A DNA stretch of 64,000 nt from Salinimicrobium tongyeongense (GTDB lineage: Bacteria; Bacteroidota; Bacteroidia; Flavobacteriales; Flavobacteriaceae), in assembly GCF_026109735.1 (NCBI RefSeq), contig NZ_CP069620.1, positions 124,001 through 188,000 of the forward strand, in the 5' to 3' direction. A program made the translations under genes and the position numbers. Within the stretch, counting starts at the first letter, position 1. Every line of letters begins with the position of its first letter. A model generated the notes under the pieces. It saw only the letters and a program-made list of their open reading frames with translations, was not told where the DNA came from and made no database searches. Below, piece by piece: positions 1 to 26,219 of the stretch.

Positions 1-1491
1 TGGTAATACCATATACTCTACATGATCGGTAGTTTTTATGTACTCTGTCCACAAATTTGCCTGGGCTCCTAATATATGCTTTCCTTCTTCTTCAGAAAGT
101 TCCTGGGGAACTGGGTTAAAAGAATACACTTTTTCAACAGGCACAAAGCCGCCTATGCCAAGAGGCTCATCTTCGTTTTTAGACTGGTAGTAATCGAAAT
201 AGAGATGATCGTTAGGTGTCATCACAACATCGTGACCCTGCCTGGCTGCCTCAATACCTCCCTTAGAACCTCTCCAGGACATAACGGTGGCATTAGGCGC
301 CAAACCACCTTCAAGAATTTCATCCCAACCTATGATTTGCCTTCCATTTTCATTAAGAAACTTTTCAATGCGGCTTATAAAATAGCTCTGCAACTCATGT
401 TCATCTTTTAAACCTTCCCTCTTAATAACCGCCTGTGCCTGCTCACTCTCTTCCCACTCTGTTTTAGGAGCTTCATCACCACCTATGTGAATGTACTCAC
501 TGGGAAACAAATCCATAACTTCGGTGAGTACATCCTCAAGGAACTTAAAAGTTTCTTCTTTAGGAGCAAAAATTGTGGGAAACACCCCCCATTTTGTTTC
601 TACTTCATAAGGTCCTGTATTGTTACCAAATTCAGGATAAGCAGCTAAAGCTGCTGTGGCATGTCCAGGCATTTCAATTTCAGGAATTACTGTAATGTGC
701 CGGGCTGCGGCGTAGGCAACCACTTCTTTTACTTCTTCCTGTGTGTAGAAACCTCCATACTCTTTTCCGTCATGTTCGTCCCAATTTTTTTCTACCATAG
801 TTCCTTTTCTTACTGAACCTATTTCTGTAAGTTTTGGATACTTTTTTATCTCAATTCGCCAGCCCTGATCTTCGGTAAGATGCCAATGAAAGCGGTTCAT
901 TTTATGCAGCGCAAGTAGATCTATATATTTTTTAATAAATTCTAATGGGAACATATGACGAGCTACATCAAGGTGCATCCCACGGTAAGAAAACCTGGGA
1001 GCATCTTCTATTTCTACAGCAGGTATTGTGAGATCTGTCACTTGTGCCACTTCTGCTTCTGCGGGCATTAACAATCGCAAAGATTGAATTCCGTAGAAAA
1101 CCCCTTGAGATGTTTTCCCTGAAATCTTTATTTGATCGTAAGTAACGCTTAGCTTATATCCTTCTTCTTCCTGTATTTCAGAATCTAATTTGAGAATAAT
1201 AACATGATCACCAGCCTTACCAGAAGTTACTGTTTCCAACTTAAATCCTGATGCCCCAGATAGTAATTGAGATAGAAAATTAGCTTCTGGAACTAGAGAA
1301 TCGGAAGCAACTATACGTGTATGCTCGTCAATTACAAATCTACCGGGAGCTGTATTCATTCTTACAGGTAATGGGATGACAGAATAATCTTTGGGAGTGT
1401 TTTCTACATCTTTATATTCGGTATAAGATTTTCCTGTTTCGCATGCACTAATCAGAATCGTAAGAAACAGGAATGGTAAAATTTTTTTCAT
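1..1491 (-). CDS. Beta-N-acetylhexosaminidase, GH20 (3' end outside window)
   Basis: Removes terminal beta-linked GlcNAc or GalNAc from glycan ends. The reading frame runs from an ATG at 1491 to the window edge without a stop, so about 497 residues are visible and the C-terminus is missing. A lipoprotein signal peptide (hydrophobic stretch ending ILISAC) is followed by an N-terminal GH20b-type domain and then the TIM barrel. The barrel has the RYRG-like entry (FSYRGMHLDVARH), the HWHLTEDQGWR segment and the catalytic Asp-Glu pair in HIGGDEAPKTEW. It lies 65 bp downstream of the sialidase and is probably co-transcribed with it, which suits removal of GlcNAc once sialic acid and galactose are gone. 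Family assignment is firm; the exact substrate is inferred from context. Confidence 0.93.
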   Translation of the reverse strand, partial: MKKILPFLFLTILISACETGKSYTEYKDVENTPKDYSVIPLPVRMNTAPGRFVIDEHTRIVASDSLVPEANFLSQLLSGASGFKLETVTSGKAGDHVIILKLDSEIQEEEGYKLSVTYDQIKISGKTSQGVFYGIQSLRLLMPAEAEVAQVTDLTIPAVEIEDAPRFSYRGMHLDVARHMFPLEFIKKYIDLLALHKMNRFHWHLTEDQGWRIEIKKYPKLTEIGSVRKGTMVEKNWDEHDGKEYGGFYTQEEVKEVVAYAAARHITVIPEIEMPGHATAALAAYPEFGNNTGPYEVETKWGVFPTIFAPKEETFKFLEDVLTEVMDLFPSEYIHIGGDEAPKTEWEESEQAQAVIKREGLKDEHELQSYFISRIEKFLNENGRQIIGWDEILEGGLAPNATVMSWRGSKGGIEAARQGHDVVMTPNDHLYFDYYQSKNEDEPLGIGGFVPVEKVYSFNPVPQELSEEEGKHILGAQANLWTEYIKTTDHVEYMVLP

Positions 1492-1556
1492 ATTTATCAA
1501 CTTTAAAAATTTTAAATTTAGGTTTACCAACACATTGGATTCTTTTATTAATTTAT

Positions 1557-2687
1557 TTATTTCTTTTTAATACTATCTTCACCATCAGTTAACCACTCCA
1601 AAGAAAAGCTCGTAAAGGCATTCTCTTTATAATCATCTTTTTCAAAAAATACTCCTATTTCACCATTTTCTAGAATTGTCAATGATGAATATGCAGCACC
1701 ACCAGCATATACGGTTTTACCTTCACTCCAGCTCTTACCTTCATCATAACTTATTCTCACCGTCAAATTCTTACGTGCCTCTGCATCGTTTGAGTTAGAA
1801 AACAGAAGACGGTTTTTATCATCTCCATCATTAACAGAAGTATATCTAAGAATACTGGCATTGTTCCCGGGGTCTACAAGAACTTTTTCGGTTTTTGTAT
1901 CCCAGGTCTTCCCTTTATTACTTGAAACATGAACATAACGATGGCCGTCCCCTGTATTGACGCGGGAATTTATCATATAATCTCCATTTCTTAGCTCAAT
2001 AACTTTAGATTCATCGGCAGGCTTCACAGGTGAATCAATTAAAAACCAGTTTTCACCATGGTCATCACTACCAAAGAGATACACCCCTTCCTTAAGCCTA
2101 ACCAATGTATGTAGTAACCTTCCATCCTGTGTTTGGATGCCTCGTCCAGAGGTTATGAATTTAAAATCATTATGCCATTCTTCTTTTGCTATATAAGAAG
2201 TGATATCGCGGGGTTTGGTCCAGGTTTCACCATTGTCTGCACTCTTAAGAACATGTAAATAATAGACATCCTTTTCATTCTCAAGATCCATATAATTGTA
2301 GAATAAGAACACCTCACCTGTTTCTTCATCTACAATCATGGAAGGATCTGAAGCTGATTTACCTTCCGGAAAATCTATTACCCTCTCTATTTCTCCCCAG
2401 GTTTTACCATTGTCGGTACTTCTGCGCTGTACTATATTGATATCTCCACTACCGCGCAAATCGGCACAGGAGGGCACCCGTTCGTCAATAGCAGCAATTA
2501 AATCCCCATTGGGAGCTGTAACAATTGAAGGAATGCGATAACAGGCTATTCCCGGGTCGTTTTCTGCATTAAAAAGATCATGAAACAACAGTTCTTTCTG
2601 ATTTTGTTTCAGCGATGTCTTGGGTGATTTTGATGAATTGCAGCCGCAAAAGGCAGCAAGAACAAAAATGAGTAGATTTTTTTTCAT
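1557..2687 (-). CDS. Exo-alpha-sialidase, GH33 lipoprotein
   Basis: Hydrolyses terminal sialic acid from glycoconjugates. The 376-residue protein begins with a lipoprotein signal (AAFCGC), so it is probably anchored in a membrane. The sialidase arginine motif appears as YRIPS near residue 50. At least four Asp-box repeats of the S-x-D-x-G-x-x-W type follow (STDNGKTW, SADNGETW, SSNKGKTW, SYDEGKSW), one per propeller blade. A YSSL segment near residue 333 followed by NGEIGVFFE carries the probable catalytic tyrosine and glutamate. It is the first gene of a minus-strand pair with GH20. No sialic acid lyase, kinase or transporter is visible, so it may only uncap the glycan. Confidence 0.93.
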   Translation of the reverse strand: MKKNLLIFVLAAFCGCNSSKSPKTSLKQNQKELLFHDLFNAENDPGIACYRIPSIVTAPNGDLIAAIDERVPSCADLRGSGDINIVQRRSTDNGKTWGEIERVIDFPEGKSASDPSMIVDEETGEVFLFYNYMDLENEKDVYYLHVLKSADNGETWTKPRDITSYIAKEEWHNDFKFITSGRGIQTQDGRLLHTLVRLKEGVYLFGSDDHGENWFLIDSPVKPADESKVIELRNGDYMINSRVNTGDGHRYVHVSSNKGKTWDTKTEKVLVDPGNNASILRYTSVNDGDDKNRLLFSNSNDAEARKNLTVRISYDEGKSWSEGKTVYAGGAAYSSLTILENGEIGVFFEKDDYKENAFTSFSLEWLTDGEDSIKKK

Positions 2688-2814
2688 TGTAGAAGATTAT
2701 ATGTAGGCTATGAATTCACAACAGTAAAATCTCAATTTAGCCTTAGGTAAAATTCACAAGCTCAAATATAACATTAAGATTAAAAATAAAGTTAATTTTT
2801 AAATAAATTCTTAT

Positions 2815-3001: not shown

Positions 3002-3754
3002 TTATAAAGGTTTTACGAAGAAACAACCCCTATACATATAAGTAATAAATTTCCATATAAAAGAAACTCATGATTAATTTAAAAAACATAGTTCTGTCAA
3101 ATTTAAAGTCATTGTCTTACCCAATATTTAAATCTACTTCCGCTTAGTTTTTCCAAATATATAGCAGCTACATCCAATTCTTTAATAAAAAAATTAAAAA
3201 AACTAAAAAAATTAATTTTATAATTTTTGAAATAACAATCAAAAACATATATTAGCAAAGGTAACGTAAATAAAATCAAAAGGTTTCATAAAAACTAAAT
3301 TTCATAATACGGTAATGGTGCATCTACTTTCAGAAAAGATTAATAAGAAAAGGTAGATTATTAGTAAAGCACCTATGATAGAAAAATCAAAAGGCAGACT
3401 GTACCAGTTCCTGAAATCTGGAAATAAAATAAACAAGATAAGGATAAATTTTTCATGAAGAGTTTATGAGAACAAATTCTCAAAGTGGCACTCGGGGGAA
3501 AACAATAATTAGCCTAACAGACATATTTTATGAATGACAGATTATAACTAAAAAATTGACTTGGGGGATAGAACCCTGTTCATATTAAATAACTGAAATC
3601 AATATAATACTTTATAGCTAGCTTTCAATAAAAAACAAGATTACAACTAGCCACAAAAAGTAGTAATGACCAGAATAAGTTTAAAACTGTTAATAATCTA
3701 ATCAAACCAAAATGAAAAATTTACTAGTGTTAATTTGAAATAGACACGATAAAA

Positions 3755-3767
3755 TCTGACAGTTAAG
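3755..3767 (+). repeat. IS left terminal inverted repeat
   Basis: TCTGACAGTTAAG, perfectly complementary to 5018-5030. A second, imperfect inverted copy (CTTAAAACTGTCAGA) lies at 3805-3819 just before the transposase ATG, so the left end alone can fold into a stem with a two-base bulge. Confidence 0.88.
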
Positions 3768-3819
3768 GATTATATTTAAAGAGTTGAAACAAAAAACATT
3801 AACCCTTAAAACTGTCAGA

Positions 3820-5010
3820 ATGAATACAGAAGCAAAGGTAATTAAATCTAAAGTAGGTTTATTACAGTTAGCAGAACAATTAGGAAACGTGTCCCAGGCT
3901 TGTAAACTCTTTGGTTATAGCAGGGATAGTTTTTACCGCTTTAAAGAACTTTATGACCAGGGAGGTGAGTTAGCACTACGAGAGCTCAATAGAAGAAGGC
4001 CAAATCTTAAGAATAGGATTGAAGAAGAAACAGAAAAAGCAGCAATCCAGATTGCTTTTGATTATCCTGCTTTTGGACAACTTCGCGCTTCCAATGAACT
4101 CAAAAAGAAAGGAATTTTTATCTCACCAGCAGGTGTTCGATGTGTATGGTTACGCAATGATCTGGAGACTTTTAAAAAAAGGCTGAAGTACTTAGAAGCC
4201 AGAATGGCCCAGGATGGACTGGTGTTGACTGATGCTCAACTAAATGCCTTGGAGAAAGCGAAAGAAGAAAAGAAAGCCCATGGAGAAATAGAAACCCACC
4301 ACCCCGGCTATCTTGGAGCTCAGGATACCTATTATGTAGGAACCATCAAAGGAGTTGGAAGAATCTATCAGCAAACATTCATTGACACGTATTGCAAAGT
4401 AGCCCATGCTAAACTTTATGATCGTAAAAATGCTCTTGTAGCTGCTGATATGCTAAATGATCGGGTGTTACCCTTCTACGAAGAGCAAGACCTGCGACTT
4501 TTAAGAATATTAAGCGATAGAGGCACAGAATTCTGTGGCCATAGAGAGCACCACGAATATCAACTTTACCTGGCTATCGAGGATATAGATCATACAAAGA
4601 CCAAGGCTAAAAGCCCGCAAACCAACGGAATCTGTGAACGCTTCCACAGGACGATTCAGGATGAGTTTTACGCCATTACCTTTAGGAAAAAGATCTACAC
4701 CTCCATAGAGGAGATACAAGCTGATCTGGATGATTGGTTAAACTACTATAACAATGAAAGAACCCACTCCGGAAAACATTGTTTTGGAAAAACTCCGATG
4801 CAAACTTTGCTCGACAGCAAACATTTGGCTGATGAAAAAATGCTGGATTTACAATCGGAAAAACTCGTACCTTTATTAAAGGCAGGTAAAGCGGAAACAG
4901 GCTCTGGTGGAGACCAACCTGTCAGGAATAACTTGCCTGACGACTGGAATGGTCAAGGGGCTCCAAACGAGCCCCTAAATCAGGTTTATTCCAAAAGTCA
5001 AAATGCCTAA
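3820..5010 (+). CDS. IS481-family DDE transposase
   Basis: Catalyses cut-and-paste or copy movement of the surrounding element. An N-terminal helix-turn-helix (GNVSQACKLFGYSRDSFYR) is followed by a linker and an rve/DDE integrase core. The core has a first Asp in QQTFIDTYCKVAHAKL, a second Asp in LSDRGTEF, and the Glu in SPQTNGICERFHR. The C-terminal YYNNERTHSGKHCFGKTP is typical of the family. A frame starting at TTG 3784 would add 12 residues, but ATG 3820 directly after the subterminal repeat is the better start. The length of about 396 residues is full size and nothing looks broken. Its stop (5008-5010) overlaps the ATG of susC by eight bases, which allows read-through transcription and possibly coupled translation of susC. 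Confidence 0.92.
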   Translation: MNTEAKVIKSKVGLLQLAEQLGNVSQACKLFGYSRDSFYRFKELYDQGGELALRELNRRRPNLKNRIEEETEKAAIQIAFDYPAFGQLRASNELKKKGIFISPAGVRCVWLRNDLETFKKRLKYLEARMAQDGLVLTDAQLNALEKAKEEKKAHGEIETHHPGYLGAQDTYYVGTIKGVGRIYQQTFIDTYCKVAHAKLYDRKNALVAADMLNDRVLPFYEEQDLRLLRILSDRGTEFCGHREHHEYQLYLAIEDIDHTKTKAKSPQTNGICERFHRTIQDEFYAITFRKKIYTSIEEIQADLDDWLNYYNNERTHSGKHCFGKTPMQTLLDSKHLADEKMLDLQSEKLVPLLKAGKAETGSGGDQPVRNNLPDDWNGQGAPNEPLNQVYSKSQNA

Positions 5011-8000
5011 AAAAACTCTTAACTGTCAGACGAGATCGGAGCTATTACAGTTAATTGGTCTCATGTTTTTTTCTACTGGTGGTCTGGCTCAGGAGGCCCC
5101 CATAACTATTACCGGAAAAGTAGTAGATGCAGAATCCAATATCCCAGTGCCGGGAGCTAATGTGTTTCTAAAAGGTACTACCAATGGAACAATGACAGAT
5201 TTCAACGGCGAGTTTTCTTTACTCGTGCCGAGTAAGAAATCCCTAATAGTAATTTCTTTTGTGGGGTTTAAAACCCAAGAAATAACTATCGGAGATCAGA
5301 CACATTTCGGCATTGTACTGAAAACAGATCAGGCGCAATTGGATGAAGTTGTTGTTATTGGGTACCAAACAGTTCGCCAAAAAGAATTAACCGGTGCAGT
5401 AAGCAGTATTAGCGGAAACGATCTTGAAGGAATTCCTGTAACCAATGTTGCTGATATAATTGCAACTCAATCCACCGGATTGCAAAATATCAACGTAAGT
5501 GGTGCTCCCGGTGCCAGAGGTGGATTAGTAATTCGGGGTAATACAAGTATTGGCGGCAATATTGATGCATATTCTGCTTTTAGTAATCCCTTATATGTAA
5601 TAGATGGGGTGCAGACTTCTCTGGAGGATCTTGCTGGATACAATGTTTCCAATACCGATTTCCTGGCTTCCTTAAACCCCAATGATATAGAAAGTATTGA
5701 CATCTTAAAAGATGCTTCCGCAGCAGCCATATATGGCTCCCGAGGAGCAAACGGTGTTATTATAATAACTACCAAAGGAGGGAGAGCTTTAGAAGAACCG
5801 GAATTTAATTTCTCCAGCAGTATTGGCTTCAGCCCCAAACCTGAGCTGGTTCCCATGCTTATAGGAACTGCGGAAAGACGCGCTAAAATGGATATGATAC
5901 ACACCTGGTGGAATCATGATTCTCAATTCACAAACGAGGTGCCAATCATGCTGACTGACAGTATAAATCCTGCTTTTAATAATAATGTGGATTACCAGGG
6001 TTTGTTTTACCAAACAGGTATAAGTCAAAGGTACAATCTTAGCGTAAGAGGCGGTGGTGAGAAGTCCAACTACCGAATTTCCCTGGGTTACAATAGTGAC
6101 GAAGGAGTCGTGAAAGGGACAGGCTTTGAAAGGTATACTTTGAATTCCAATATTAATGCAAAAATAGGCACTGTATTTACAAACCAGTTTAGGGCTAACG
6201 TATCATTTACGGATAACCAGACAGGTCAGGGTAATCCCTATCAGGGGAATTTTGACCTGAACTCTACTCTTCCGGTCAATCCCGCCTCCCTGAACTCCTC
6301 TTTATTTTACTTGTCTGATAAAAGAAGGGAATCTCTAACTGGAGAACTGGATGAGAAGTTGAATACAGACCAGGCTATCACAACTACCTTTTCCAATCTT
6401 GCACAACTGGATTTAATAGGTGGGGTAATTTTAAATTCACAATTGACTTTTCAATATGATTCCAACAAAAAGAATTTTTACGAACCTTCAACCATTCGAC
6501 CTCAGGGAGATGGCTTTGCCAGTTACGCCTTGTACACCAGGAAGAACCTTTCTTCAGACACTTATCTGAGTTTGTTTAATCTCATTGGAGATCATGAAAT
6601 CACAGCGATACTAGGGAACCGTTTGGATTATAACAGATATGAAGATATGGGACTGAGTGCCGTTGGTTTTGGGAGTGATGCCATTCAGGTAATCAACAAT
6701 CGATATACCACAGAGGAAATTAGTGGATATACAGATATAAGTGCCAATGCCTTGTTGTCTTATTATGGAAGATTCAGTTACAAATTTAAGAATAGATACA
6801 TATTTATGGCTAACCTTAGTGTTGATGGTTCCTCCCGTTTTGGGGAGGACGTACGATGGGCGAGGTTCCCGTCCTTTTCGGGAGCATGGATCTTCTCTGA
6901 TGAACCTTGGCTCAAGACACATGTTTCAGACTGGTTAGATTATGCCAAACTAAAATTCAGCTGGGGTATTAATGGAAAGCAATTCCCTGAAAACTATCTT
7001 CGATTTGGCTCCTATAATTTAGGTTACGGAGGAAACAATATGTGGGCTAACCAAATGGCTGTCTCCACTTATGCCGGCACTACCGGAGTTGTTCCGAATT
7101 ACGGGGCTATCGGAAATTCTTCCTTGTCATGGGAAGAATCCGAACAGTGGAATGCCGGGTTTGAAATAGATATGTTTGATCATAGGCTAAGTCTGACCTT
7201 CGATGCTTATCGCAAAGCAACTGATAAATTATTCTTTGACATTAATTTCCCTGCTTATTCGGGGTATGACGCTGCGAAGGCCAATGTTGCCGGAATCCTG
7301 AATTATGGGTGGGAATCTATGGTGAGGTACGAGCTTTTTCCACGTACCAGCGACTTCAGATTGGAATTGAGCGCAGGTTTAAGCCAAAATGAAAACTATA
7401 TCAGTAAGCTACCGAACGGGAACAGAGACTACACAGGTCCCGGTTACGGATATGTAGTTGGAAGACCTATTAACCTTTATTATATGTTCAGAAATAATTA
7501 CATAATTGATGATTTGGATCAATTACCGGTCAATCCGTACACAGGAGAACCCCTGACTGGGAAATCGGCCTGGGCACCTATCAGGCCAGGCTTTCCAATC
7601 TGGCAGGATATGAATGGGGATTTTATTTTGAACGAAGAACACGATCAAAAGCTGGTGCATGAATATTCTCCGGTACCTGATGTGTTAGGGTCTTTTAATA
7701 TCAGCCTTAAATATAAAGGTTGGTATTTGCAGGCTTACAGTCATTTTTCCTTTGGATCTGATATCAAAAACACTGTTTTGAACAGCTATATGGATCAATA
7801 TGATCGGGGAGGTACAGGATGGGCCACTACAGGTCTGGCTGATCTCAGTGAATACACTTTTTGGCAACAGCCTGGAGATGGAGCTGCAGGGGTTCAGTTT
7901 CCTGCGCTTTACCCTCAGGGAGGGGGGCTTGCTCCTTTCTACGCCTTTAGAGGAAACCAAACCCTCTGGATTGAAAGTGGAGATTACTGGAAAGTCACGA

Positions 8001-8215
8001 ATGCTTCAATTGGACATATTTTCGACCAGAATAGTATTATTAGCAATTTAGGTCTTTCACGATTACGTGCTTATGTTTCAGTACTTAATCCTTATCAATG
8101 GCAGCGATCCAAAACAGTAGTAGATGCCTCTATGGTAGATGCTTTAGGAAATGTATTAGGTAATGGATATCCTCAGGTAAGAACATATTCATTTGGAATT
8201 GATGCAAGATTTTAA
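5003..8215 (+). CDS. SusC-like TonB-dependent outer-membrane receptor with IS-derived N-terminus
   Basis: Outer-membrane transporter that imports oligosaccharides captured by its SusD partner. The 1070 residues show a carboxypeptidase-regulatory-like domain (about 34-115, ITITGKVVDAES to GEFSLLVP), the DEVVVIGY junction, a plug domain (SIDILKDASAAAIYGSRGANG is centred near residue 240), and a beta-barrel ending in an aromatic residue (GIDARF). The start is unusual. ATG 5003 lies in the IS end, and roughly the first ten residues are IS sequence, followed by a native hydrophobic stretch (LLQLIGLMFFSTGGLAQ). The hybrid still resembles a signal peptide, with lysines at positions 3-4 and a cleavage-like ALAQ-type site. 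Whether it exports efficiently is unknown. The rest of the gene is intact. It is followed 10 bp later by susD. Confidence 0.93.
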   Translation: MPKKTLNCQTRSELLQLIGLMFFSTGGLAQEAPITITGKVVDAESNIPVPGANVFLKGTTNGTMTDFNGEFSLLVPSKKSLIVISFVGFKTQEITIGDQTHFGIVLKTDQAQLDEVVVIGYQTVRQKELTGAVSSISGNDLEGIPVTNVADIIATQSTGLQNINVSGAPGARGGLVIRGNTSIGGNIDAYSAFSNPLYVIDGVQTSLEDLAGYNVSNTDFLASLNPNDIESIDILKDASAAAIYGSRGANGVIIITTKGGRALEEPEFNFSSSIGFSPKPELVPMLIGTAERRAKMDMIHTWWNHDSQFTNEVPIMLTDSINPAFNNNVDYQGLFYQTGISQRYNLSVRGGGEKSNYRISLGYNSDEGVVKGTGFERYTLNSNINAKIGTVFTNQFRANVSFTDNQTGQGNPYQGNFDLNSTLPVNPASLNSSLFYLSDKRRESLTGELDEKLNTDQAITTTFSNLAQLDLIGGVILNSQLTFQYDSNKKNFYEPSTIRPQGDGFASYALYTRKNLSSDTYLSLFNLIGDHEITAILGNRLDYNRYEDMGLSAVGFGSDAIQVINNRYTTEEISGYTDISANALLSYYGRFSYKFKNRYIFMANLSVDGSSRFGEDVRWARFPSFSGAWIFSDEPWLKTHVSDWLDYAKLKFSWGINGKQFPENYLRFGSYNLGYGGNNMWANQMAVSTYAGTTGVVPNYGAIGNSSLSWEESEQWNAGFEIDMFDHRLSLTFDAYRKATDKLFFDINFPAYSGYDAAKANVAGILNYGWESMVRYELFPRTSDFRLELSAGLSQNENYISKLPNGNRDYTGPGYGYVVGRPINLYYMFRNNYIIDDLDQLPVNPYTGEPLTGKSAWAPIRPGFPIWQDMNGDFILNEEHDQKLVHEYSPVPDVLGSFNISLKYKGWYLQAYSHFSFGSDIKNTVLNSYMDQYDRGGTGWATTGLADLSEYTFWQQPGDGAAGVQFPALYPQGGGLAPFYAFRGNQTLWIESGDYWKVTNASIGHIFDQNSIISNLGLSRLRAYVSVLNPYQWQRSKTVVDASMVDALGNVLGNGYPQVRTYSFGIDARF
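5018..5030 (+). repeat. IS right terminal inverted repeat
   Basis: CTTAACTGTCAGA, the exact reverse complement of the left terminal repeat at 3755-3767. It is translated in frame as part of the susC N-terminus. Confidence 0.88.
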
Positions 8216-8225
8216 AAATAAGAAA

Positions 8226-14759: not shown

Positions 14760-14863
14760 TTCTCCGGTTCCTGCCATAAATCAATCTCTATTTAATTTCT
14801 AAACGCCATAAATTGCAAAGGAGTCAATTTCTTATCATTTTAAATCTATCCAATTCCACCTTG

Positions 14864-17732: not shown

Positions 17733-18365
17733 ATGAAGAAATTTATTAAAGAAGCATGCGTAGGTAACCTTGAAGAAGCAATAAGAGCAGAAGCCCAAGG
17801 TGCTGATCGCATTGAACTCTGCACAGATCTTCATCTGGACGGCCTAACTCCTTCCGAAGAACTAATCAAAACAGCAAAAGAGCAGCTTAATATTCCGATA
17901 AGAGTGATGATTAGGCCGCGGAGTGGAGATTTTCTCTATACTCCTGAAGAATTGAAAGAGATAAAAGCTTCAATAGAATTTTGTAAAAGTACAGGTGTAG
18001 AAGCCGTTGTTTTTGGAATATTGAATTCTAAAAATGAACTTGATATTGAAAAGATTGAACAACTGACTCAATTCTCCGCACCTCTAAAAGTGGTAGTTCA
18101 TAAGGCTATTGATTTCACAAATGATCCTCTGGAAAATTTAGAAAAACTCCTTAAGATAAAAGGCATAAGCAGTGTGTTGACATCGGGAGGAGCAGAAACC
18201 GCTGAAGAAGGTAAGGAGCTTCTTAAGAAAATGCTGGAGCTGTGCGGTAATGGCGTAGAAATAGTACCGGCTGGTAAAATATCATGTGATAACCTGGAAG
18301 AATTACATGAATATCTTGGCGCCCGCGCCTATCATGGAAAACGCATTGTAGGTGACCTGCATTAG
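17733..18365 (+). CDS. cutC: CutC-family protein
   Basis: A TIM-barrel protein of the CutC family, historically called a copper-homeostasis protein; its biochemical role is unsettled. Visible family features are the N-terminal EACVGNLEEAIRAEAQGADR, RIELCTDLHLDGLTPS, VMIRPRSGDFLYT, VFGILNS, HKAIDF and LTSGG. At 210 residues it is a little shorter than common members of about 240, mainly at the C-terminus. It has no signal peptide and is thus cytoplasmic. It lies between GH20 and the fucosidase/galactosidase pair, which suggests a role tied to the imported sugars rather than to copper; this is inference. Confidence 0.85.
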   Translation: MKKFIKEACVGNLEEAIRAEAQGADRIELCTDLHLDGLTPSEELIKTAKEQLNIPIRVMIRPRSGDFLYTPEELKEIKASIEFCKSTGVEAVVFGILNSKNELDIEKIEQLTQFSAPLKVVVHKAIDFTNDPLENLEKLLKIKGISSVLTSGGAETAEEGKELLKKMLELCGNGVEIVPAGKISCDNLEELHEYLGARAYHGKRIVGDLH

Positions 18366-18378
18366 AACTGTAGCCTGT

Positions 18379-18496: not shown

Positions 18497-20719
18497 TCAG
18501 TAAAAATCAATCTCTGCCGCCGAAGCCGAATTTCCCTGCCCTGCAATAGTTATTGCTTCTATTCGAACATATCGGGTTTGATAACTGCGTTTTAACTGAT
18601 GGACCCGCGGAGTAGGATCATTAATTAGATTGCCAAAATTAAAGACGTCTATCAATTTCCAGTTCTTTCCATCCTCGCTGATCTTAATAATTCCGCTTTC
18701 TATAAGGTCTGTTTTTTCTGAAGTCTCGGGAGTGTATCCAAAGGCCGAGATCTCTACTTCTGCTCCCAGATCAATTTCCAGATAATGAGGCTTTCCTTTA
18801 GATCCCGAAACCCAGTAAGTATCGGGGTCTGCATCAATAGCCAGTTCAGGAAGATTTTCCTCCCTGGAACTGTCGGCAATAATCTTCCAGTCATTTTTAA
18901 GTAACCCGAAGGTTTTAGAGGATTCGGCACCCTTAACACCATTTTTTACAGCCACTGCCTTTAATGTTCCTTGATTCAGCATAAAAGGTGCCTCGTATTT
19001 CTTTTTTAAATCCTTACCTTCTATCCAATATTCGATTTCGATCTCCTCATCAAAGTTTTGCGGGAGCGGATCTCTTTTCCAGGTGAATTCATCCTTTTTA
19101 GGTTCCAGTGTCACCAGTCCGTCAGTATTCCTGGTCATTTCGATTTGAGGCGGTCTTTCAGCATAATAATGAGCCGAAATCTTAGCGACTGCGGGAGTAG
19201 CACGTGACCGGGTAATTAATAGTCTGAATTCTTTTGCAGTAACCTCAGGAAATCTTAAAATGCGATTAAAACCTACGTTGGTGCCTTTAGAAATGACTTC
19301 CCAGGTGCCATCCACAAAAGCTTCCAGTTGGTGAGCTTCAATTCTTTCTCCATGACTTGCGACCGCTTCCTGGATTTTGAGACGGTTAATCGTAATGGGT
19401 TTTTGTGCGGTAATTGTTATCGCCTTCGGCTCCTCTTCCAAAAGCACAAAAGTCTGGAGTTTTTCATCTTTTAAAATTTCAGGTAGATCTGTAGCTGCAA
19501 AGTGATCGTTTCCGTAGGTTTTTTTAATCCGCTCCCCCACTTCTTTTAATACAGAGACATCCTCTTCAGAAAACCTACCTTTGCGGTTGGGAGGAATATT
19601 CAGCAGAAAAATTGCATTACCACCTACGGCCCTTTCATAGATATCAAAAACATCATCGGCATTTCTCACTTTTTGGGACTCCTCATCCCGATAGAACCAG
19701 CCTTCCCGAATGGAGGTATTTACTTCTGCGGGTTGATAATGTAAATACCCGGCCTCATATAATTTTTCCCTTTGCCCAATACTATCTCCCGTAATATCAC
19801 CAAAAATGTTCATGGTATCGGGATTTCCCTCATAGGGAATCACATTCCATTCGGTATTGCGGGTGGCTCCAGATTCATTTCCTGCCCAGCGAATATCTTC
19901 TTTCCCAAAAATAACTGCCTGCGGAGCCAAAGTTCTTATCAATTCTTTCCAGGCTGTGTAGTTATAAGTTTGACCGCCTTTTCTCTTGGGATGCGCGCCA
20001 TCAAACCATACCTCGTGAACCGGACCATATTCGGTGAGCAACTCGAATAACTGGTTTAAAAAATACTCGTTGTAGTCATCCACCTCAAATTCGAAAGTTG
20101 TTTTATTTTTAAAAGGCCTCCCGGGAACTTTCCGCGGAATCGTTCTCTTGGTGGCATTGCTCAAATTCCCGTATAAGCCCTCTGGATTTTCTATTTGATA
20201 GAGATCGGCCGGGGAAAGATAAACTCCCAGTTTTAACCCATACTTTTTACAGGACTCGGAAAGTTCTTTCATAATATCCCCTTTTCCCGCCTTAAAAGGA
20301 GAAGACATTATTCCGTGATCTGTGTACCTGCTTTGCCACAGCACAAAGCCGTCATGATGCTTGGCGGTAAGAATCACTTTTGTCATTCCGGCTTCTTTCA
20401 TGGCCTTACACCATTGATCTGTATCCAGGTTTTGAAGTTCGAATACCTGCGGATCTTCTTTTCCTGTCCCCCACTCCATTTTTGTGAAGGTATTGGGGCC
20501 TAAATGAACAAAGGCAATAAAACCGTCTTTTAAAGCTTGCAGTTGATTATCACCAGGTACTATGTGGGCGGCCTTTAAAATGATTTCTTCTTTTGAGTCT
20601 TCAGGTTCAATTTTAACAGTATTGGCTACCGGCATCTGCAGGCCTTCCTGCGCCTGGAGAGAAAGTGCGGGTACAATAAAAAGGTTTAAAAAAAGAGAGA
20701 TTTTAAAAAAGGTATTCAT
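18497..20719 (-). CDS. Alpha-L-fucosidase, GH29, with F5/8 domain
   Basis: Removes terminal alpha-L-fucose. The 740-residue protein has a signal peptide ending SLQAQ. The GH29 barrel shows GMTKVILTAKHHDGF, SPADLYQIENP, and the nucleophile Asp in VHEVWFDGAHP. After the barrel come a beta-sandwich, a chitobiase-C-like segment (about residues 505-590) and a C-terminal F5/8 discoidin domain ending AAEIDFY. The gene is second in a minus-strand pair, 10 bp after the GH2 gene. In this PUL it would uncap fucosylated galactose or GlcNAc. Linkage preference cannot be read from sequence. Confidence 0.93.
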   Translation of the reverse strand: MNTFFKISLFLNLFIVPALSLQAQEGLQMPVANTVKIEPEDSKEEIILKAAHIVPGDNQLQALKDGFIAFVHLGPNTFTKMEWGTGKEDPQVFELQNLDTDQWCKAMKEAGMTKVILTAKHHDGFVLWQSRYTDHGIMSSPFKAGKGDIMKELSESCKKYGLKLGVYLSPADLYQIENPEGLYGNLSNATKRTIPRKVPGRPFKNKTTFEFEVDDYNEYFLNQLFELLTEYGPVHEVWFDGAHPKRKGGQTYNYTAWKELIRTLAPQAVIFGKEDIRWAGNESGATRNTEWNVIPYEGNPDTMNIFGDITGDSIGQREKLYEAGYLHYQPAEVNTSIREGWFYRDEESQKVRNADDVFDIYERAVGGNAIFLLNIPPNRKGRFSEEDVSVLKEVGERIKKTYGNDHFAATDLPEILKDEKLQTFVLLEEEPKAITITAQKPITINRLKIQEAVASHGERIEAHQLEAFVDGTWEVISKGTNVGFNRILRFPEVTAKEFRLLITRSRATPAVAKISAHYYAERPPQIEMTRNTDGLVTLEPKKDEFTWKRDPLPQNFDEEIEIEYWIEGKDLKKKYEAPFMLNQGTLKAVAVKNGVKGAESSKTFGLLKNDWKIIADSSREENLPELAIDADPDTYWVSGSKGKPHYLEIDLGAEVEISAFGYTPETSEKTDLIESGIIKISEDGKNWKLIDVFNFGNLINDPTPRVHQLKRSYQTRYVRIEAITIAGQGNSASAAEIDFY

Positions 20720-20729
20720 GAATCAGGGG

Positions 20730-23102
20730 CTATTGGAGATTAATATTGCTTCGGGATATTCCCGGAGCCGTAGCTTCAATGCTTACAGGAGCTTTTAATT
20801 CTTTTGTTCTTAAAAGGATCGTGGCAATTCCTGCTTCAGCTTTTACGGGGTTTTCGCCAATGAGTTCGGCATTTTCTCCGGAAGAGATTTTAAAGGTCAC
20901 CGGTAAAGTGGCATTGTGAACCAGGGTTCCGTTTTCATCCAGGAGTTTTGCGTAGATAAAAACCACATCTGAAGTTTCCCTGGCAATCTCCTTTCCTGAA
21001 ATATCTGCTGAAAGTGCCATTTTTGACACCTCTCCCGGCGTGCGCACCACATGGCTGGCAACTTCTTTCCCGTCAATAAATCCAACTGATTTTATTTCCC
21101 CCGGAACATATTCAGGAATTGAAAATGTAAAAGGCGGGTACCACAGTTCATCCGAAAATTCAGTGCGAACCGGCTTCTTTTTTTCGATCAAATTTCCGTT
21201 TAGGTAAAGCTCCACTTCTTCGGTATTGCTGTACACGGTAACATCTGTAGTGGAACCGGGCTGCCAGTAGTTCGCTATGTAAACCATAGGTTCTGAAAAA
21301 TTTCCCTGATATGGCGGCTTCTGACTCTTATAAAAATAGTAACTGAACTTCGGAATCCTGAAAATATCTGAAATCCCTGAAGCTTCAAGGTCATTGGCAT
21401 ATCCGCGGTTATAATCGAACATCAACCAGTTTGACATTCCAATGGTCTGTTCGCCCTTCAGGTTGGAATTTGTGGCTTCCTGAAAATTCAATGCCTGCTG
21501 CAAAAGCCTTTTTTCACCGGCAGATCTTAATTGCCTGCTGGTTCGCTCCTCTTCCTTCAGGTCGCCAAATGCCTTCTGGTTAAATCCGGCATTTTGCGCA
21601 TAATATTCCCAGTCACCATATTCAGCTATTAAAACAGGTCGGTTGGGTTTGTTATAGTCATTCCAATAAGTAGGAGGCTGCGCATGTTGCCGTGCAGGAA
21701 TAAAAAGCTCGTAAGCCGGGTGGTCTATCCAGCCAGCGCTAAATGTATTTTCGTAAGGCAGTTCGGCTTTTAAAACCTGATTGGCTTTCAGCATAAAAGC
21801 TTCGGTCATCCCCGATTCATTGAGGGAATTCTCCCAAAAAACCACACTTGGATGATTGCGGTCACGGCGTGCCATATCTTTAATATCCTGCAGCGCATTT
21901 TCAACAAATTCCCCTTCTTCATAAAACTGCCAGCCGGGAATGGCGTTCATTACCAGCAAGCCCAGCTCATCACAGGCCTTTAAAAAGGCAGTGGAATGTG
22001 GATAATGTGAAAGCCGCACAAAATTAAAACCTGCCTGTTTAATTTTATAGGCATCGCGGTAATTGGCTTCATTTGAAATGGCATAGCCCACATAAGGATA
22101 TTCCTGGTGGCGGTTGGTACCATTGATGAACAATTCCTGGCCGTTGAGATAAAATGCATTTCCGGTGAGTTCAATTTTCCTTATTCCGGTGGTGATGCTT
22201 TGTCGGTCTATAACCTTTTCATCTTCAAGCACTTCAATTTCAAGCTCGTACAAATTAGGCTGGGACGGGCTCCACAGCTCCGGATTTTCTACGGAAACTT
22301 CAGCGGTAAAATGTCCATCTCCGCCGGAAACCAGTTTTTTCTGAGGTGTCAAAAATGTCATTTTTTCGCCTTCTTCCGAAGTTAAAGTGGCACGAATCCT
22401 CAGCTCTTTTTCAGCTTCAGCATCATTGACAACATGCACTTTTACAAATCCGGAAGCTTTTTCAGCAGAAATACTGTCGAAATGCACTAAAATTCCGCCG
22501 CCATTTACCTCTTTTGCATGAACCGGATCTGAAATATGTACCGGATTGGTCTTTATGAGCTGCACGTTGCGGTAAATACCCCCATAAAGGTTAAAATCGA
22601 GGTCGGCAAGCGGTTTTCCGGGTGGGATGGTGGCGTCATCAAGATTTATTACCTCAACTTTAATGCTATTTTGAGCATTATTCTTCAAAAAAGGCGTTAC
22701 GTCGACAGTAAAAGGCAAATATCCGCCTTTGTGCGTCTTTACCAGAGAGTCGTTGATGCTCACGTGCGCCTCCTGCATAACGCCTTCAAAATGGAAAAAC
22801 CACTTTTCATTTTTGGCCTTTTCAACGGGAAATTCTTTGATGTAAACCGATTTTCCCTGCCACTGGTTGTTTACCAGCAAAGGTTCGATCTTTACAGAAT
22901 GTGGCAAAAAAACATCTTCTACGGTTCTTTCTGTTAATGCCGATGGATCTTCACGGTAAAACTGCCAGTTGTTGTTGAAGTTGATGACCTGGCGGGGAAG
23001 CTTCTGCTGTGCCCCCACTTTTTTGGAAGGAGGTAGGGACTCGCAACCAAAAAAAGTAAGGGATAAACAGACTAAAATGATAGTTTTTAACTGTTGTTTC
23101 AT
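20730..23102 (-). CDS. GH2 beta-galactosidase-like lipoprotein
   Basis: Exo-hydrolase of the GH2 family, most likely a beta-galactosidase. ATG 23102 is chosen over an ATG ten codons upstream because it begins a lipoprotein signal (LSLTFFGC). The sugar-binding domain, the Ig-like domain and the TIM barrel (FINGTNRHQEYPYVGYAI) follow in order. The acid/base Glu is in WENSLNES and the nucleophile Glu in VLIAEYGDWEYY. C-terminal Ig-like/DUF4982-type domains complete about 790 residues. The pairing with galK-galT across the regulator gene fits galactose release. It leads the operon with the GH29 gene. Confidence 0.88.
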   Translation of the reverse strand: MKQQLKTIILVCLSLTFFGCESLPPSKKVGAQQKLPRQVINFNNNWQFYREDPSALTERTVEDVFLPHSVKIEPLLVNNQWQGKSVYIKEFPVEKAKNEKWFFHFEGVMQEAHVSINDSLVKTHKGGYLPFTVDVTPFLKNNAQNSIKVEVINLDDATIPPGKPLADLDFNLYGGIYRNVQLIKTNPVHISDPVHAKEVNGGGILVHFDSISAEKASGFVKVHVVNDAEAEKELRIRATLTSEEGEKMTFLTPQKKLVSGGDGHFTAEVSVENPELWSPSQPNLYELEIEVLEDEKVIDRQSITTGIRKIELTGNAFYLNGQELFINGTNRHQEYPYVGYAISNEANYRDAYKIKQAGFNFVRLSHYPHSTAFLKACDELGLLVMNAIPGWQFYEEGEFVENALQDIKDMARRDRNHPSVVFWENSLNESGMTEAFMLKANQVLKAELPYENTFSAGWIDHPAYELFIPARQHAQPPTYWNDYNKPNRPVLIAEYGDWEYYAQNAGFNQKAFGDLKEEERTSRQLRSAGEKRLLQQALNFQEATNSNLKGEQTIGMSNWLMFDYNRGYANDLEASGISDIFRIPKFSYYFYKSQKPPYQGNFSEPMVYIANYWQPGSTTDVTVYSNTEEVELYLNGNLIEKKKPVRTEFSDELWYPPFTFSIPEYVPGEIKSVGFIDGKEVASHVVRTPGEVSKMALSADISGKEIARETSDVVFIYAKLLDENGTLVHNATLPVTFKISSGENAELIGENPVKAEAGIATILLRTKELKAPVSIEATAPGISRSNINLQ

Positions 23103-23184
23103 ACAGCAGTTTATAAATGTAAATATTACCATTATTTCTGAAACTAAAAAGACTTTTTAGAAAAATTTTCTTCTGAAGAATTTC

Positions 23185-23910
23185 CTATAGCACGCCGAAG
23201 TCGCTTCCGCCTTTTAGGAGGTCGCTGTAGCGTTTATGGTCAAATTTGTAGAGAAATGCACCGCGTTTTGAGGAAGATTTATCTTTTTCGTCAAGTTTTA
23301 CGAGCACATTATGGGAGAAAACTTTTTTGCGGAAATTTCGCGTATCGAGTTCCCGCTGAAATATCGCCTCATACACGCTTTGAAGTTGCGGGATTGTAAA
23401 TTTTTCGGGTAGTAATTCAATGCCCAAAGGCTGGTACCTGGCCTTGAATTTGAGTTTTTCGAGAGCATCATTGACCATTTGCTCATGATCGAGTACCAGC
23501 GCAGGCAGATCTTTCACATCATGCCACACCGCGCCATGCTGCTCTACCAGCTTCTTGTCGTACTCATTAAGCCTGATGAGCGCATATTGCCCCACCGAAA
23601 TGCACCTGAAGCCGGGATCTCTGTCTACAGCGCCATACACCTTAAGCTCTTCCATGTAAACGTCTTTAAGTCCGGTGATCTCTTCAAGCACCCGTTCGGC
23701 CGCAGCCGAAACATCTTCGTCAAGCTTTACAAAACTGCCTATAAGCGACCACTGCCCTTCCAGGGGAGAAACCCTTCTTTTGAAAAGTAAAAGTTTTAGA
23801 CTTCCGGCATCAAACCCAAAGATAATACAGTCTGTAGCCACGAGCATCTTCTCACCCTGCTCATAGAATTTCCTGGTAACAGCCGGCAGGCCCTCTTTTT
23901 CTTCGTACAT
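23185..23910 (-). CDS. NUDIX-winged-helix transcriptional regulator (NrtR/AraR-like), probable galactose regulator
   Basis: Sugar- or nucleotide-responsive regulator. The N-terminal half is a NUDIX fold (VATDCIIFGFD, LLLFKRRVSP, GQWSLIGSFVKLDEDVSAAAERVLEEITGL). Its NUDIX box has degenerate catalytic residues (no full REUXEE), typical of family members that bind rather than hydrolyse. The C-terminal half is a winged helix (FTIPQLQSVYEAIFQRELDTR, then the wing FSHNVLV). Family members regulate NAD or arabinose genes in other bacteria. Divergence from galK-galT suggests galactose control. ATG 23910 (MYEEKEG) is preferred; the longest frame would start at 23979 inside the galK promoter. Confidence 0.85.
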   Translation of the reverse strand: MYEEKEGLPAVTRKFYEQGEKMLVATDCIIFGFDAGSLKLLLFKRRVSPLEGQWSLIGSFVKLDEDVSAAAERVLEEITGLKDVYMEELKVYGAVDRDPGFRCISVGQYALIRLNEYDKKLVEQHGAVWHDVKDLPALVLDHEQMVNDALEKLKFKARYQPLGIELLPEKFTIPQLQSVYEAIFQRELDTRNFRKKVFSHNVLVKLDEKDKSSSKRGAFLYKFDHKRYSDLLKGGSDFGVL

Positions 23911-23964
23911 TAATGTGATATTACTTACTACAAAAAAACCATTTTTTTCTGGATTAAAAAATGA

Positions 23965-23991
23965 TTGTACGATATACATTTATTAACTTTG
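23965..23991 (+). promoter_or_regulatory. Candidate galK promoter with overlapping dyad
   Basis: TAACTTTG (23984-23991) matches the Bacteroidota -7 element TAnnTTTG, with TTG at 23965-23967 and a 16-base spacer, one base short of the usual range. Inside the spacer lies a dyad TGTA-N5-TACA (23966-23978). A second dyad, ACATTAATGT, overlaps the regulator start codon. Both are candidate operators for the divergent NUDIX-type regulator; neither is tested. Confidence 0.5.
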
Positions 23992-24012
23992 AGGAAATCA
24001 AATTCAGCATTG

Positions 24013-25173
24013 ATGAAAAACATCACGGAAGAAAACGTACCGGAAACTTTCAGGAATTTTCAAAAAGACTTCACGGTGTATGCCCCGGGCAGGATCAACC
24101 TTATTGGGGAACATACAGATTACAACAACGGGTTTGTACTGCCCACAGCAATAGATAAGACCATCAAGTTGCATTTTAGGGCCAACAACACGCCTTACAC
24201 CTGCAGCGTTTACAGCAAGACCTATCATAAATCTTTCAGCTTTGATCTTCGGAAGATCTCCAGGAGCGATGTAGACTGGGAGAATTACATTTTAGGAGTG
24301 GTCAACGAGATCCAGAAGCTGGGGGAATATCCCGAAGGTTTTGACTGTATCATTGAAAGCGACCTGCCCGTGGGTGCCGGCATAAGCTCTTCGGCTGCCC
24401 TGGAGTGCGGGACTGCTTTTGGCCTCAACGAACTTTTTCACCTTGACCTTTCCCGGCAGGCCATAGCCGAACTTTCCAGGAATGCCGAACACAACTACGT
24501 GGGCACTAAATGCGGGATCATGGATCAATATGCCTCTATTCTCAGCAAAGAAGGGCACCTCATTTTACTCGACTGCCGCAACCTGGAAGCCACATACATT
24601 CCGGCCGATCTTGAAGGTTACAAGCTGCTGCTCTTAAACACCGGTGTTTCACACAGCCTGGCCTCGAGCGAGTACAATACCCGTAGAAAGGAATGTGAAG
24701 AAGCAGTAAAACTTATAAGTGTGGCTTACCCAGAAGTTAAATCCCTGAGAGATGTTAACCTGGAACGCCTATACGAAGTTAAAGACAGCCTTCCCGAACA
24801 GCTTTACAGGCGGGCGCATTATGTGGTATCAGAAAATGACCGCGTGCTTAAAGCCGTAGAAGCCATAAAACAGAAAGACCTGGAGCAGTTTGGCCTGCTC
24901 ATGTATGATTCTCACAAAGGATTGCGCGACGAATACCAGGTGAGCTGTAAGGAACTCGATTTTCTGGTAGAGCTCACCACAGAGTATTCGCCGGTAAAAG
25001 GTGCCCGGATGATGGGCGGCGGCTTTGGTGGCTGTACCATCAATTTGATCGAAGAGAACGCCCTAGATGAGTTTATAAAAATTGCTTCGGAAGCCTATCA
25101 AAAGGAATTTGGTATTACTCCTGAAGCTATAGTCGTTTCCCCGGAACAGGGAACTTACCTGAAAAAAAATTAA
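24013..25173 (+). CDS. galK: Galactokinase
   Basis: Phosphorylates galactose to galactose-1-phosphate with ATP, first committed step of the Leloir pathway. The GHMP kinase signatures are all present: the galactokinase signature in [18 protein letters not shown], the ATP loop [14 protein letters not shown], the catalytic region [14 protein letters not shown] and [16 protein letters not shown] 24013 gives the usual 386 residues; a longer frame from 23965 would run across the promoter. galT follows 5 bp later. The enzyme would use galactose released by the GH2 enzyme and the GH16/GH20 cascade. Confidence 0.97.
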
Positions 25174-25178
25174 TATCC

Positions 25179-26219
25179 ATGTCTGAAGATTTCAACACCC
25201 ATCCTCACAAAAGATTCAATATTTTAACCGGAGAATGGATCCTGGTGTCGCCCCACCGCACAAAGAGGCCCTGGCAGGGCCGACTTGAAAAAGTGGCCGA
25301 AGAAAAAAGGCCTTCTTATGACGCCGACTGCTTTTTATGCCCGGGAAACAAAAGGGCCAGCGGAGACACCAATCCCAATTATACCAACCCTTACACTTTC
25401 AGAAATGATTTTTCGGCACTGCTGCCCGAGGGTCCAAAAGAAGAATTTGAAGACGGCCTGCTCAAAGCCAGTGCCGAAACAGGGATTTGCCGGGTAGTTT
25501 GTTTTTCACCCGATCATTCCCTTACCCTGCCGGTGATGAATACCAGTGATATTGTGAAGGTAATACGGAAATGGAAAGAAGAATATGCCAGTCTTGGTAG
25601 CCGCGAAGACATCAATCACGTGATGATCTTTGAAAATAAGGGCGATATGATGGGTTGCAGTAATCCGCACCCGCACGGGCAAATTTGGGCGCAGCTGTCA
25701 GTTCCGGTTGAAGTTCAGAAAAAGACCGAACATCAGAAAAAGTACTGGGAACGCAATAAGAGAAGCCTCTTGGGAGATTACCTTGAGCAGGAACTAAAAT
25801 CAGAAGAAAGAATTGTGCTCAAAAATGAGCATTTTGTTGCCCTGGTGCCTTATTGGGCCATCTGGCCTTACGAAACCATGATCATCCCGCGGCGGCAAAT
25901 GCAACATATTGGTCAGCTTTCTTCGGAAGAGGAAAATGCTTATGCCGGGATCCTGAAGCAGCTCACTATAAAATACGACAACCTGTTTCAAACCTCTTTC
26001 CCCTACTCTTCCGGAATTCATCAGCAACCAACCAATGGTCAGGATTTTCCCGAATGGCATTTTCACATGTCTTTTTATCCCCCGCTGTTAAGATCAAAGA
26101 CGGTGAAAAAATTCATGGTGGGTTATGAAATGTTTGCCGGCCCACAAAGGGACATCACGGCAGAACAGGCCGCAGCAACCCTTCGGGAACTCCCGGCCCA
26201 GCATTACACGCAGGAATAA
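25179..26219 (+). CDS. galT: Galactose-1-phosphate uridylyltransferase
   Basis: Transfers UMP from UDP-glucose to galactose-1-phosphate, second Leloir step. The HIT-type active site is [11 protein letters not shown], with the nucleophilic His in the H-P-H motif. The first zinc-binding cysteines are in CFLCPGNKR, and the C-terminal [22 protein letters not shown] is typical. At 346 residues it is full length. galE is not in the window. It ends the galK-galT operon; a dispersed near-palindrome starts 7 bp after its stop and a strong hairpin follows at 26296. Confidence 0.96.

Follow-up and report, generated by a model that had tools for sequence, protein, structure and literature searches.

A flavobacterial polysaccharide utilization locus probably directed at sulfated mucin-type O-glycans in Salinimicrobium tongyeongense

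Systems for the breakdown of sulfated mucin-type chains are already known, best from gut bacteria. GH16 O-glycanases have been described from gut Bacteroides and Akkermansia (PMC7419316), and the mucin O-glycan polysaccharide utilization loci (PULs) of Bacteroides thetaiotaomicron, as presented in PMC10154612, bring together S1_11 sulfatases, SusC/D pairs and glycoside hydrolases. The locus described here is a system of this kind in a flavobacterium related to marine genera, Salinimicrobium tongyeongense, and no published description of it was found in a title- and abstract-level literature search of partial coverage. The window, that is, the whole stretch of 64,000 nucleotides analysed, covers positions 124001-188000 of contig C1 of a 3.51-Mb, one-contig genome (G000; G001-G011 are congener genomes, and L-numbers denote stretches or loci compared). 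The locus is probably a PUL for sialylated, fucosylated and sulfated mucin-type O-glycans with poly-N-acetyllactosamine arms, made up of a ~49-kb island, of which the window shows the right half, and a resident GH2-NrtR-galK-galT block.

In contrast to the B. thetaiotaomicron PULs as described in PMC10154612, the genes form one contiguous island in a non-gut lineage, with aga genes and galKT attached and with AgaR and a Nudix/NrtR-type protein as the regulators seen; the open reading frames (ORFs) of the locus that were scanned included neither an ECF sigma factor nor a hybrid two-component system. Sialidase, fucosidases and sulfatases have been read as signs of mucus or mucin use in Flaviramulus ichthyoenteri (PMC4324048) and in benthic metagenomes (PMC10811738). 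Those accounts, as far as the two sources present them, are genome- or community-wide lists, whereas here sialidase, fucosidase, hexosaminidase, galactosidase, sulfatase and SusC/D genes (by Pfam) lie within one mapped locus together with an O-glycanase-type GH16.

The nearest characterised relative of the GH16 protein, by sequence as well as by fold, is the O-glycanase 6t2r rather than a laminarinase. Among solved structures it scored 232 bits with 6t2r, 180 with the glucanase 7wwc and 149 with the laminarinase 3iln, and its AlphaFold model (mean pLDDT 91.5) retrieved 6t2r at Foldseek rank 1 (E 2.6e-30, 47% identity), followed by 7wwc (9e-24). The catalytic motif ExDxxE, present at residues 143-148 (E143-D145-E148), is shared with the gut O-glycanases of PMC7419316, which gives 6T2N to 6T2S as structures of its enzymes; by exclusion, 6t2r is probably BACCAC_03717.

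Relatives of the enzyme were collected by scanning genomes with a GH16 alignment and keeping the best 80 of 522. Closest among these 80 were Salegentibacter echinorum (73% identity), S. maritimus (72%), S. holothuriorum (71%) and Gramella sp. AN32 (69%), followed by three Pontibacter (61-65%) and a Rufibacter (61%). In a FastTree phylogeny of 116 rows (four rows dropped, two genes entered twice, 6t2n and 6t2o left out, rooted on 5wut), the clade uniting the window sequence with 6t2r had 88 tips (0.906), and the next one, which takes in 6t2s, had 89 (0.962), while all four laminarinases and glucanases included from the PDB, and 23 laminarinase-like sequences of relatives, fell outside the O-glycanase clade. 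As to whether the enzyme clusters with laminarinases or agarases, tree and best fold match thus both place it with 6t2r. Within the 88-tip clade, the window sequence belongs to a 12-tip clade (0.949; Salegentibacter, Gramella, Pontibacter, Rufibacter, Carboxylicivirga and one Chitinophagaceae metagenome-assembled genome). Bacteroidales, most of them host-associated, form the 6t2r group together with Capnocytophaga (0.963); soil and marine genera make up a further group with weaker node support (0.571), and a few rows branch basally. Unlike the branch described in PMC7419316, which is said there to hold the seven enzymes of that study and mucosal organisms only, this wider clade includes non-mucosal organisms. 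Within the genus the enzyme occurs in two of 12 genomes (G000, and G001 at 64%); in G002-G011 no GH16 match exceeds 39% identity, and those of G007, G008, G010 and G011, which were placed in the tree, fall among the laminarinases.

The sulfatase of the window is a predicted S1_11-type GlcNAc-6-sulfatase (GlcNAc, N-acetylglucosamine). Its top-scoring structures are the GlcNAc-6-sulfatase 5g2v (530 bits) and the mucin-desulfating sulfatase 7p24 (519 bits), both of which we take to belong to subfamily S1_11, followed by 9s03 (502 bits), and it shares the formylglycine (FGly) motif CxPSR with them (CAPSR, residue 83). The L-Gal-6-sulfatase 7lha reached 330 bits, 200 below the best GlcNAc-6-sulfatase, so that the protein is closest to GlcNAc-6-sulfatases and not to a subfamily of other specificity. 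What distinguishes it from the characterised S1_11 enzymes is the direct linkage of its gene to GH16 in the window's clade. Within the genus, S1_11 at 70% identity or more is found in two of 12 genomes (G000 and G001); five others hold a relative at 53-56%, and five hold none.

Only two PF00884 (S1) sulfatases are encoded genome-wide, both of them within the island, and the second, which carries a PA14 domain, lies about 3.6 kb upstream of the window. Its best solved structures are 9s8a (483 bits) and 9s8x (428 bits), after which scores drop to 148, structures named S1_15 reaching 88-93 bits; no informative paper on the identity of 9s8a, 9s8x or 9s03 was found in the literature search. Matches of at least 46% occur in four of the 11 searched genomes behind GH16 loci (S. 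echinorum 67%, Gramella sp. AN32 65%, Pontibacter sp. 172403-2 55% and Arenibacter nanhaiticus 46%), and S. echinorum (L137), like Gramella sp. AN32 (L138), shares the gene order GH109-S1_PA14-GH2 with G000.

As with the gut GH16 O-glycanases, the window's GH16 clade is linked with sulfatase, fucosidase and hexosaminidase genes. Counting S1_11 at 44% identity or more inside the fetched flanks of the 80 GH16 loci, a lower bound since absence is uncertain on short contigs, the sulfatase stood beside GH16 in 10 of 80 loci: eight of the 10 nearest (L057-L066) and two of the other 70 (L102, L128), a difference between close clade and rest with a Fisher p of 6.6e-8 when related loci are treated as independent. 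The nearest loci without it were L063 and L065, the latter on a short contig. The order S1_11-[GH20]-GH16-[GH2]-GH20_b was kept in all four loci of the three Salegentibacter species and Gramella sp. AN32, at identities of 80-82% for S1_11, 69-73% for GH16 and 66-67% for GH20_b. None of the seven laminarinase-type loci retrieved (L050-L056, with L050 and L051 on short contigs) had S1_11, GH20 or GH29.

The initial annotation had listed GH33, GH29, S1, GH16, two GH20, GH2, SusC/D and galK-galT genes side by side, and a Pfam search of the window ORFs confirmed each of these families in place. Catalytic motifs were present wherever a simple pattern was tried, namely in GH16, the S1 sulfatase, both GH20s and GH33. 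The features, in window coordinates unless marked G000, are as follows.

1-1533, minus strand: GH20_a β-hexosaminidase, truncated at the window edge (Pfam GH20, 404 bits as truncated, 427 bits in full)
G000 123830-125533, minus strand: the full GH20_a gene, 567 aa, with a lipobox-like start
1557-2687, minus strand: GH33 exo-α-sialidase with a lipobox-like start (BNR_2; PDB 7lbu, 165 bits; five Asp-boxes)
3735-5049, plus strand: IS481-family insertion sequence (IS), 1315 bp (NF033577, 268 bits, cut-off 224; transposase ORF 3784-5010)
5003-8215, plus strand: SusC-type TonB-dependent receptor (TIGR04056, 701 bits), its first codons from the IS end
8193-9770, plus strand: SusD-type glycan-binding lipoprotein (PF07980, PF14322; lipobox)
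9803-10441, plus strand: fasciclin-domain protein (PF02469)
10478-11560, plus strand: family-less protein with a lipobox (no Pfam or NCBIfam match)
12217-13896, plus strand: S1 sulfatase of S1_11 type, predicted GlcNAc-6-sulfatase, with a lipobox-like start (5g2v, 7p24; CAPSR motif)
13965-14759, plus strand: GH16 predicted endo-β-1,4-galactosidase (O-glycanase; 6t2r first by sequence and fold; tree)
14813-17563, plus strand: GH20_b with Fn3-associated and F5/8C domains (Pfam GH20b 84 bits, GH20 catalytic 55 bits)
17733-18365, plus strand: CutC-family protein (PF03932)
18497-20719, minus strand: GH29 fucosidase with an F5/8C domain (PF01120; PDB 4zrx, 3ues)
20730-23132, minus strand: GH2 β-galactosidase, resident in the genus (Pfam; adjoins NrtR-galK-galT in G010 and G011)
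20772-21269, no strand: 499-bp direct repeat at the right flank of the island (91.8% identical to the left copy, G000 95224-95721)
23185-23979, minus strand: Nudix/NrtR-type winged-helix regulator (PF21906)
23965-25173, plus strand: galK galactokinase (Pfam)
25179-26219, plus strand: galT galactose-1-phosphate uridylyltransferase (Pfam)

Contrary to the initial annotation, window position 1 is not where the locus begins; the second sulfatase just upstream shows that it is cut by the window edge, and the gene set runs ~28 kb further upstream, to about G000 95.7 kb. From left to right, this portion opens with minus-strand genes for AgaR, an Amidohydro_2 protein, a class II aldolase, two PfkB kinases and an AgaS-family SIS protein. 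A SusC/D pair (open, with complete Pfam domains), an IS481 copy, GH20, DUF3472/DUF5077, GH27 and GH123 follow on the plus strand, and then a minus-strand run of GH2 (LacZ type), the S1 sulfatase with PA14, GH109, a SASA esterase, GH20 and GH33, of which the first GH20 and the GH33 of the window are the tail. The upstream portion thereby raises SusC/D pairs and sulfatases to two each and GH20 genes to three, and contributes GH123, GH109, GH27, another GH2 and the aga operon.

Solved structures bear out the other glycosidases. The top match of GH33 is an exo-α-sialidase (7lbu), its five Asp-boxes being found by motif pattern, those of GH29 are 4zrx and then the α-1,3/4-fucosidase 3ues, and that of the GH2 at 20730-23132 is the β-galactosidase 5ldr (191 bits). 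A DE pair was found by pattern in each GH20 of the window. GH20_b is the weakest family call; the Pfam score of its catalytic part lies above the cut-off of 22.3, and it matched 6q63 in the PDB at 139 bits, but the best-matching stretch is its C-terminal half. Judged from its position, the family-less protein at 10478-11560 is a possible surface glycan-binding protein. The CutC gene lies between GH20_b and GH29, and a 68% relative is found near GH16 in Gramella sp. AN32 (L059 19036-19605).

For N-acetylgalactosamine (GalNAc), the aga pathway outlined in PMC5583593 offers the closest comparison. As in that scheme, AgaR is above its cut-off (263.2 vs 260) and genes for an AgaS-family protein, PfkB kinases and a class II aldolase are adjacent, a neighbourhood that fits a GalNAc pathway; in contrast to it, an Amidohydro_2 protein stands in place of AgaA/NagA, and AgaS and the kinases are under their cut-offs. 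Genome-wide, no NagA or AgaA reached the cut-off of 225.65 bits, the best score being 35, although this cut-off is strict and is passed by only 7 of 14 control genomes. The Amidohydro_2 (PF04909) gene occupies the expected place of the deacetylase in the operon (G000 96727-97719, minus strand; L004 7727-8719), and its product is a candidate non-orthologous GalNAc-6-P deacetylase.

Among 397 genomes of the family, 140 have some match to this protein and nine, its own included, a match of at least 61% identity. All nine lie beside aga genes (eight with aldolase and PfkB, three with agaR) and six of them beside GH109, whereas at the 21 retrieved loci of more distant relatives no aga genes were seen in the roughly 1.5 kb examined to either side. 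In G001 these genes likewise stand in a row. Residues H9, H11, K97, H140, H203 and D262, presumably metal or catalytic ligands, are invariant in an alignment of 13 sequences. Comparison with PDB sequences gave no meaningful match, and the only fold matches, ACMSD-like amidohydrolases, were distant (TM about 0.55), so that the fold does not name a substrate. In another genome (G042), the stretch L046 9904-13147 combines a second O-glycanase-type GH16 with an Amidohydro_2 relative (41%) less than 2 kb away.

GlcNAc catabolism had been reported as absent, which is true of the window. Elsewhere in the genome (G000:C1 1725815-1726477, in a 652-aa frame), a NagB-type deaminase is joined to a C-terminal domain that bears the deacetylase-like motif HPDDD and that we take to be of the PIG-L type. 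The predicted NagB-deacetylase-like protein could handle GlcNAc-6-P, and the fusion would explain the lack of NagA.

The initial reading of the locus as a PUL for a sulfated poly-N-acetyllactosamine-type glycan is thus supported by the placement of both GH16 and the sulfatase. Gene content, family placement, linkage and island borders were computed; from families and context, the following order of steps may be proposed. GH33, helped by the SASA-type esterase, would remove sialic acid and GH29 α-1,3/4-linked fucose, GH16 would cut Gal-β-1,4-GlcNAc (Gal, galactose) inside the chain, and the two SusC/D pairs would import the fragments. S1_11 would then take the 6-sulfate from terminal GlcNAc and the S1-PA14 sulfatase another sulfate, with the GH20s and GH2s acting in alternation and GH109, GH27 and GH123 taking α-GalNAc, α-Gal and β-GalNAc, respectively. 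Galactose would pass to galK-galT. GalNAc may be converted to triose phosphates along the aga route, which has one candidate gene for each of its five steps: a PfkB kinase, the Amidohydro_2 protein as predicted deacetylase, AgaS, a PfkB tagatose-6-P kinase and the class II aldolase.

The island spans G000 95.74-144.73 kb (~49 kb) and has 39.2% G+C, compared with 43.7% and 44.0% on its flanks. On either side of it lies the 499-bp direct repeat, which corresponds to the 3' end of GH2, the right copy belonging to the full GH2 and the left one to a 185-aa C-terminal GH2 fragment (G000 95182-95739); fragment and repeat are a probable trace of integration. Flanks were compared in six congeners (G005-G008, G010 and G011, leaving out G002, G004 and G009). 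In five of the six, a starch-PUL amylase and an 863-aa protein adjoin (GH2-)NrtR-galK-galT, and in G000 the island stands between them. GH2 is kept in G010 and G011 and persists as a remnant in G008, while G007 has the amylase and only a galT fragment. The galK-galT and GH2 genes counted in the initial set are accordingly present, but by congener synteny they are a resident block of the genus and not part of the acquired set.

A related block occurs in G003, elsewhere in the genome, with a different left flank and, right of galT, no match to the G000 neighbours. It holds SusC/D, GH20, DUF3472, GH27, GH123, GH2 and GH109 at 92-96% identity, SASA, GH20, GH33 and GH20_b at 74-86%, and GH2-NrtR-galK-galT at 89-95%. 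At this locus G003 has no PA14 sulfatase, IS, right SusC/D, S1_11, GH16, CutC or GH29, and only a remnant of AgaS; no S1 sulfatase was found in its whole assembly (about 100 contigs, 3% contamination), nor in G005. The joint absence of two sulfatases, GH16, GH29 and one SusC/D supports, as a single case, one shared function. A gain of the PA14 sulfatase in G000 relative to G003 was considered and dropped; because the order GH109-S1_PA14-GH2 is kept in S. echinorum and Gramella sp. AN32, G003 most likely lost it. For the right module, on the S1_11-GH16 side, gain in G000 and loss in G003 are both possible. RpoB identity of G000 is 97.0-98.4% with the congeners G002, G007 and G011 and 93.2-94.0% with Gramella sp. 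AN32 and three Salegentibacter species; with G001, though that genome is counted in the same genus, it is 92.9%.

The left neighbour of the island (L005 and L004 1-3209) is a starch/α-glucan PUL with GH13, GH31, GH65, SusE, the amylase and, by similarity, SusC. Right of galT lie VIT1 and an iron-transport-like gene (window 27096-28376). None of the ten ORFs scanned in window 26380-64000 is glycan-related; they are mostly housekeeping genes (FtsK, LptF/G, LigD, Exonuclease VII, an antiporter and a histidine kinase), and one is family-less.

The initial annotation had not included the IS481 element between GH33 and SusC, which has the target duplication GTTAAT on both sides. It is one of five genome copies, 100% identical over the matched part and each with a perfect 6-bp target duplication of its own (G000 106696-108010, 127735-129049 in the window, 1276488-1277802, 2918136-2919449 and 3360617-3361942). 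Two of the five fall within the 49-kb island, with a chance probability of about 0.002 (a post hoc figure). A composite transposon built from these two is ruled out, since their separate duplications indicate independent insertions.

Several observations weigh against an O-glycan PUL as proposed. O-glycanase structures other than 6t2r match the GH16 weakly (6t2n 98, 6t2o 91, 6t2s 90 and 6t2p 89 bits), below many laminarinases, and 6t2o, 6t2s and 6t2n come at Foldseek ranks 23, 28 and 33 for its model. In the tree the enzyme does not fall inside the branch of known mucosal O-glycanases, its 12-tip clade being sister to the 6t2r clade, and with the nearby group of soil and marine genera this means that its specificity could differ. 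The S1_11-GH16 set is present in S. holothuriorum and S. maritimus, but their PA14 sulfatase matches reach only 37-38%, so the pair of sulfatases is not always found together. According to PMC10154612, moreover, many aquatic S1_11 enzymes take L-galactose. The AgaS-family protein scores 383 bits against a cut-off of 529, the PfkB kinases are under all cut-offs and the aldolase passes only the broad TIGR00167. For sialic acid, a genome search for a NanA-type lyase gave one DHDPS-family protein and no separate NanA. An algal substrate, either laminarin or a sulfated galactan such as porphyran with L-Gal-6-sulfate, would draw on the laminarinases that outscore three O-glycanase types for this GH16, on the laminarinase-like enzymes of the congeners, and on the aquatic S1_11 enzymes of PMC10154612, which might be L-Gal-6-sulfatases. 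It was dropped as highly improbable, as tree and top fold match point to O-glycanases, the sulfatase is 200 bits nearer a GlcNAc-6-sulfatase than 7lha, and GH33, GH109, GH123 and aga would have no role.

Keratan sulfate proper, from fish or shark cartilage or cornea, with GH16 as a keratanase, is a more serious candidate that we nevertheless regard as unlikely. S1_11 fits 6S-GlcNAc, and all nine GH16 O-glycanases tested in PMC7419316 also cut this polymer. Its repeats are free of GalNAc, yet the island holds GH109, GH123 and an aga operon; it calls for a 6S-Gal sulfatase (S1_15), whereas the only other sulfatase lies far closer to 9s8a than to structures of that name; and GH33 and GH29 would be less needed. 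Keratan sulfate and mucin O-glycans had both been named as substrates; the upstream GalNAc enzymes and the aga operon place a mucin-type O-glycan ahead. GH123 and GH27 also suit glycolipid glycans, and two of the closest sets belong to S. echinorum and S. holothuriorum, which might suggest a glycosphingolipid, a complex N-glycan or an echinoderm sulfated glycan. Such a substrate seems improbable, as no GH85 or GH18 endoglycosidase, GH92 mannosidase or uronic-acid lyase was seen among the ORFs scanned in 95-150 kb, and an echinoderm origin is based on species names alone. Compatible with a mucin-type substrate, and overlapping with it in probability, is decay of the sulfated branch to a non-working state, which we consider rather doubtful. 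The window IS481 interrupts the right susC within its signal-peptide region, which would separate the gene from its own promoter and start, and may impair this branch; the clustering of IS copies and the absence of the entire branch from G003 point the same way. Against this, the IS end (5049) supplies an in-frame ATG overlapping the transposase stop, from which susC is open for 1070 aa, the remaining branch genes are open, and the left SusC/D pair is intact.

The combined results, read in favour of a mucin-type O-glycan PUL, tentatively suggest, at somewhat less than an even chance, a stand-alone toolkit for the sulfated mucus of animals in a non-gut setting, in which an environmental O-glycanase clade is sister to the gut enzymes, GalNAc catabolism is closed by a new non-orthologous Amidohydro_2 GalNAc-6-phosphate deacetylase, and the sulfated branch is a module either absent as a whole (G003) or interrupted by an IS (G000). 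If the PUL acts as proposed, the breakdown of sulfated mucin-type chains, mainly known from gut symbionts, would have a mapped and patchily held flavobacterial gene set, and the range of the O-glycanase clade would extend beyond mucosal organisms. The candidate deacetylase would fill a gap in GalNAc catabolism, and G000 and G003 would form a natural pair of congeners with and without the sulfatases. The locus would also allow a test of which marine organisms recycle the mucus of animals, work of a kind that PMC10811738 suggests.

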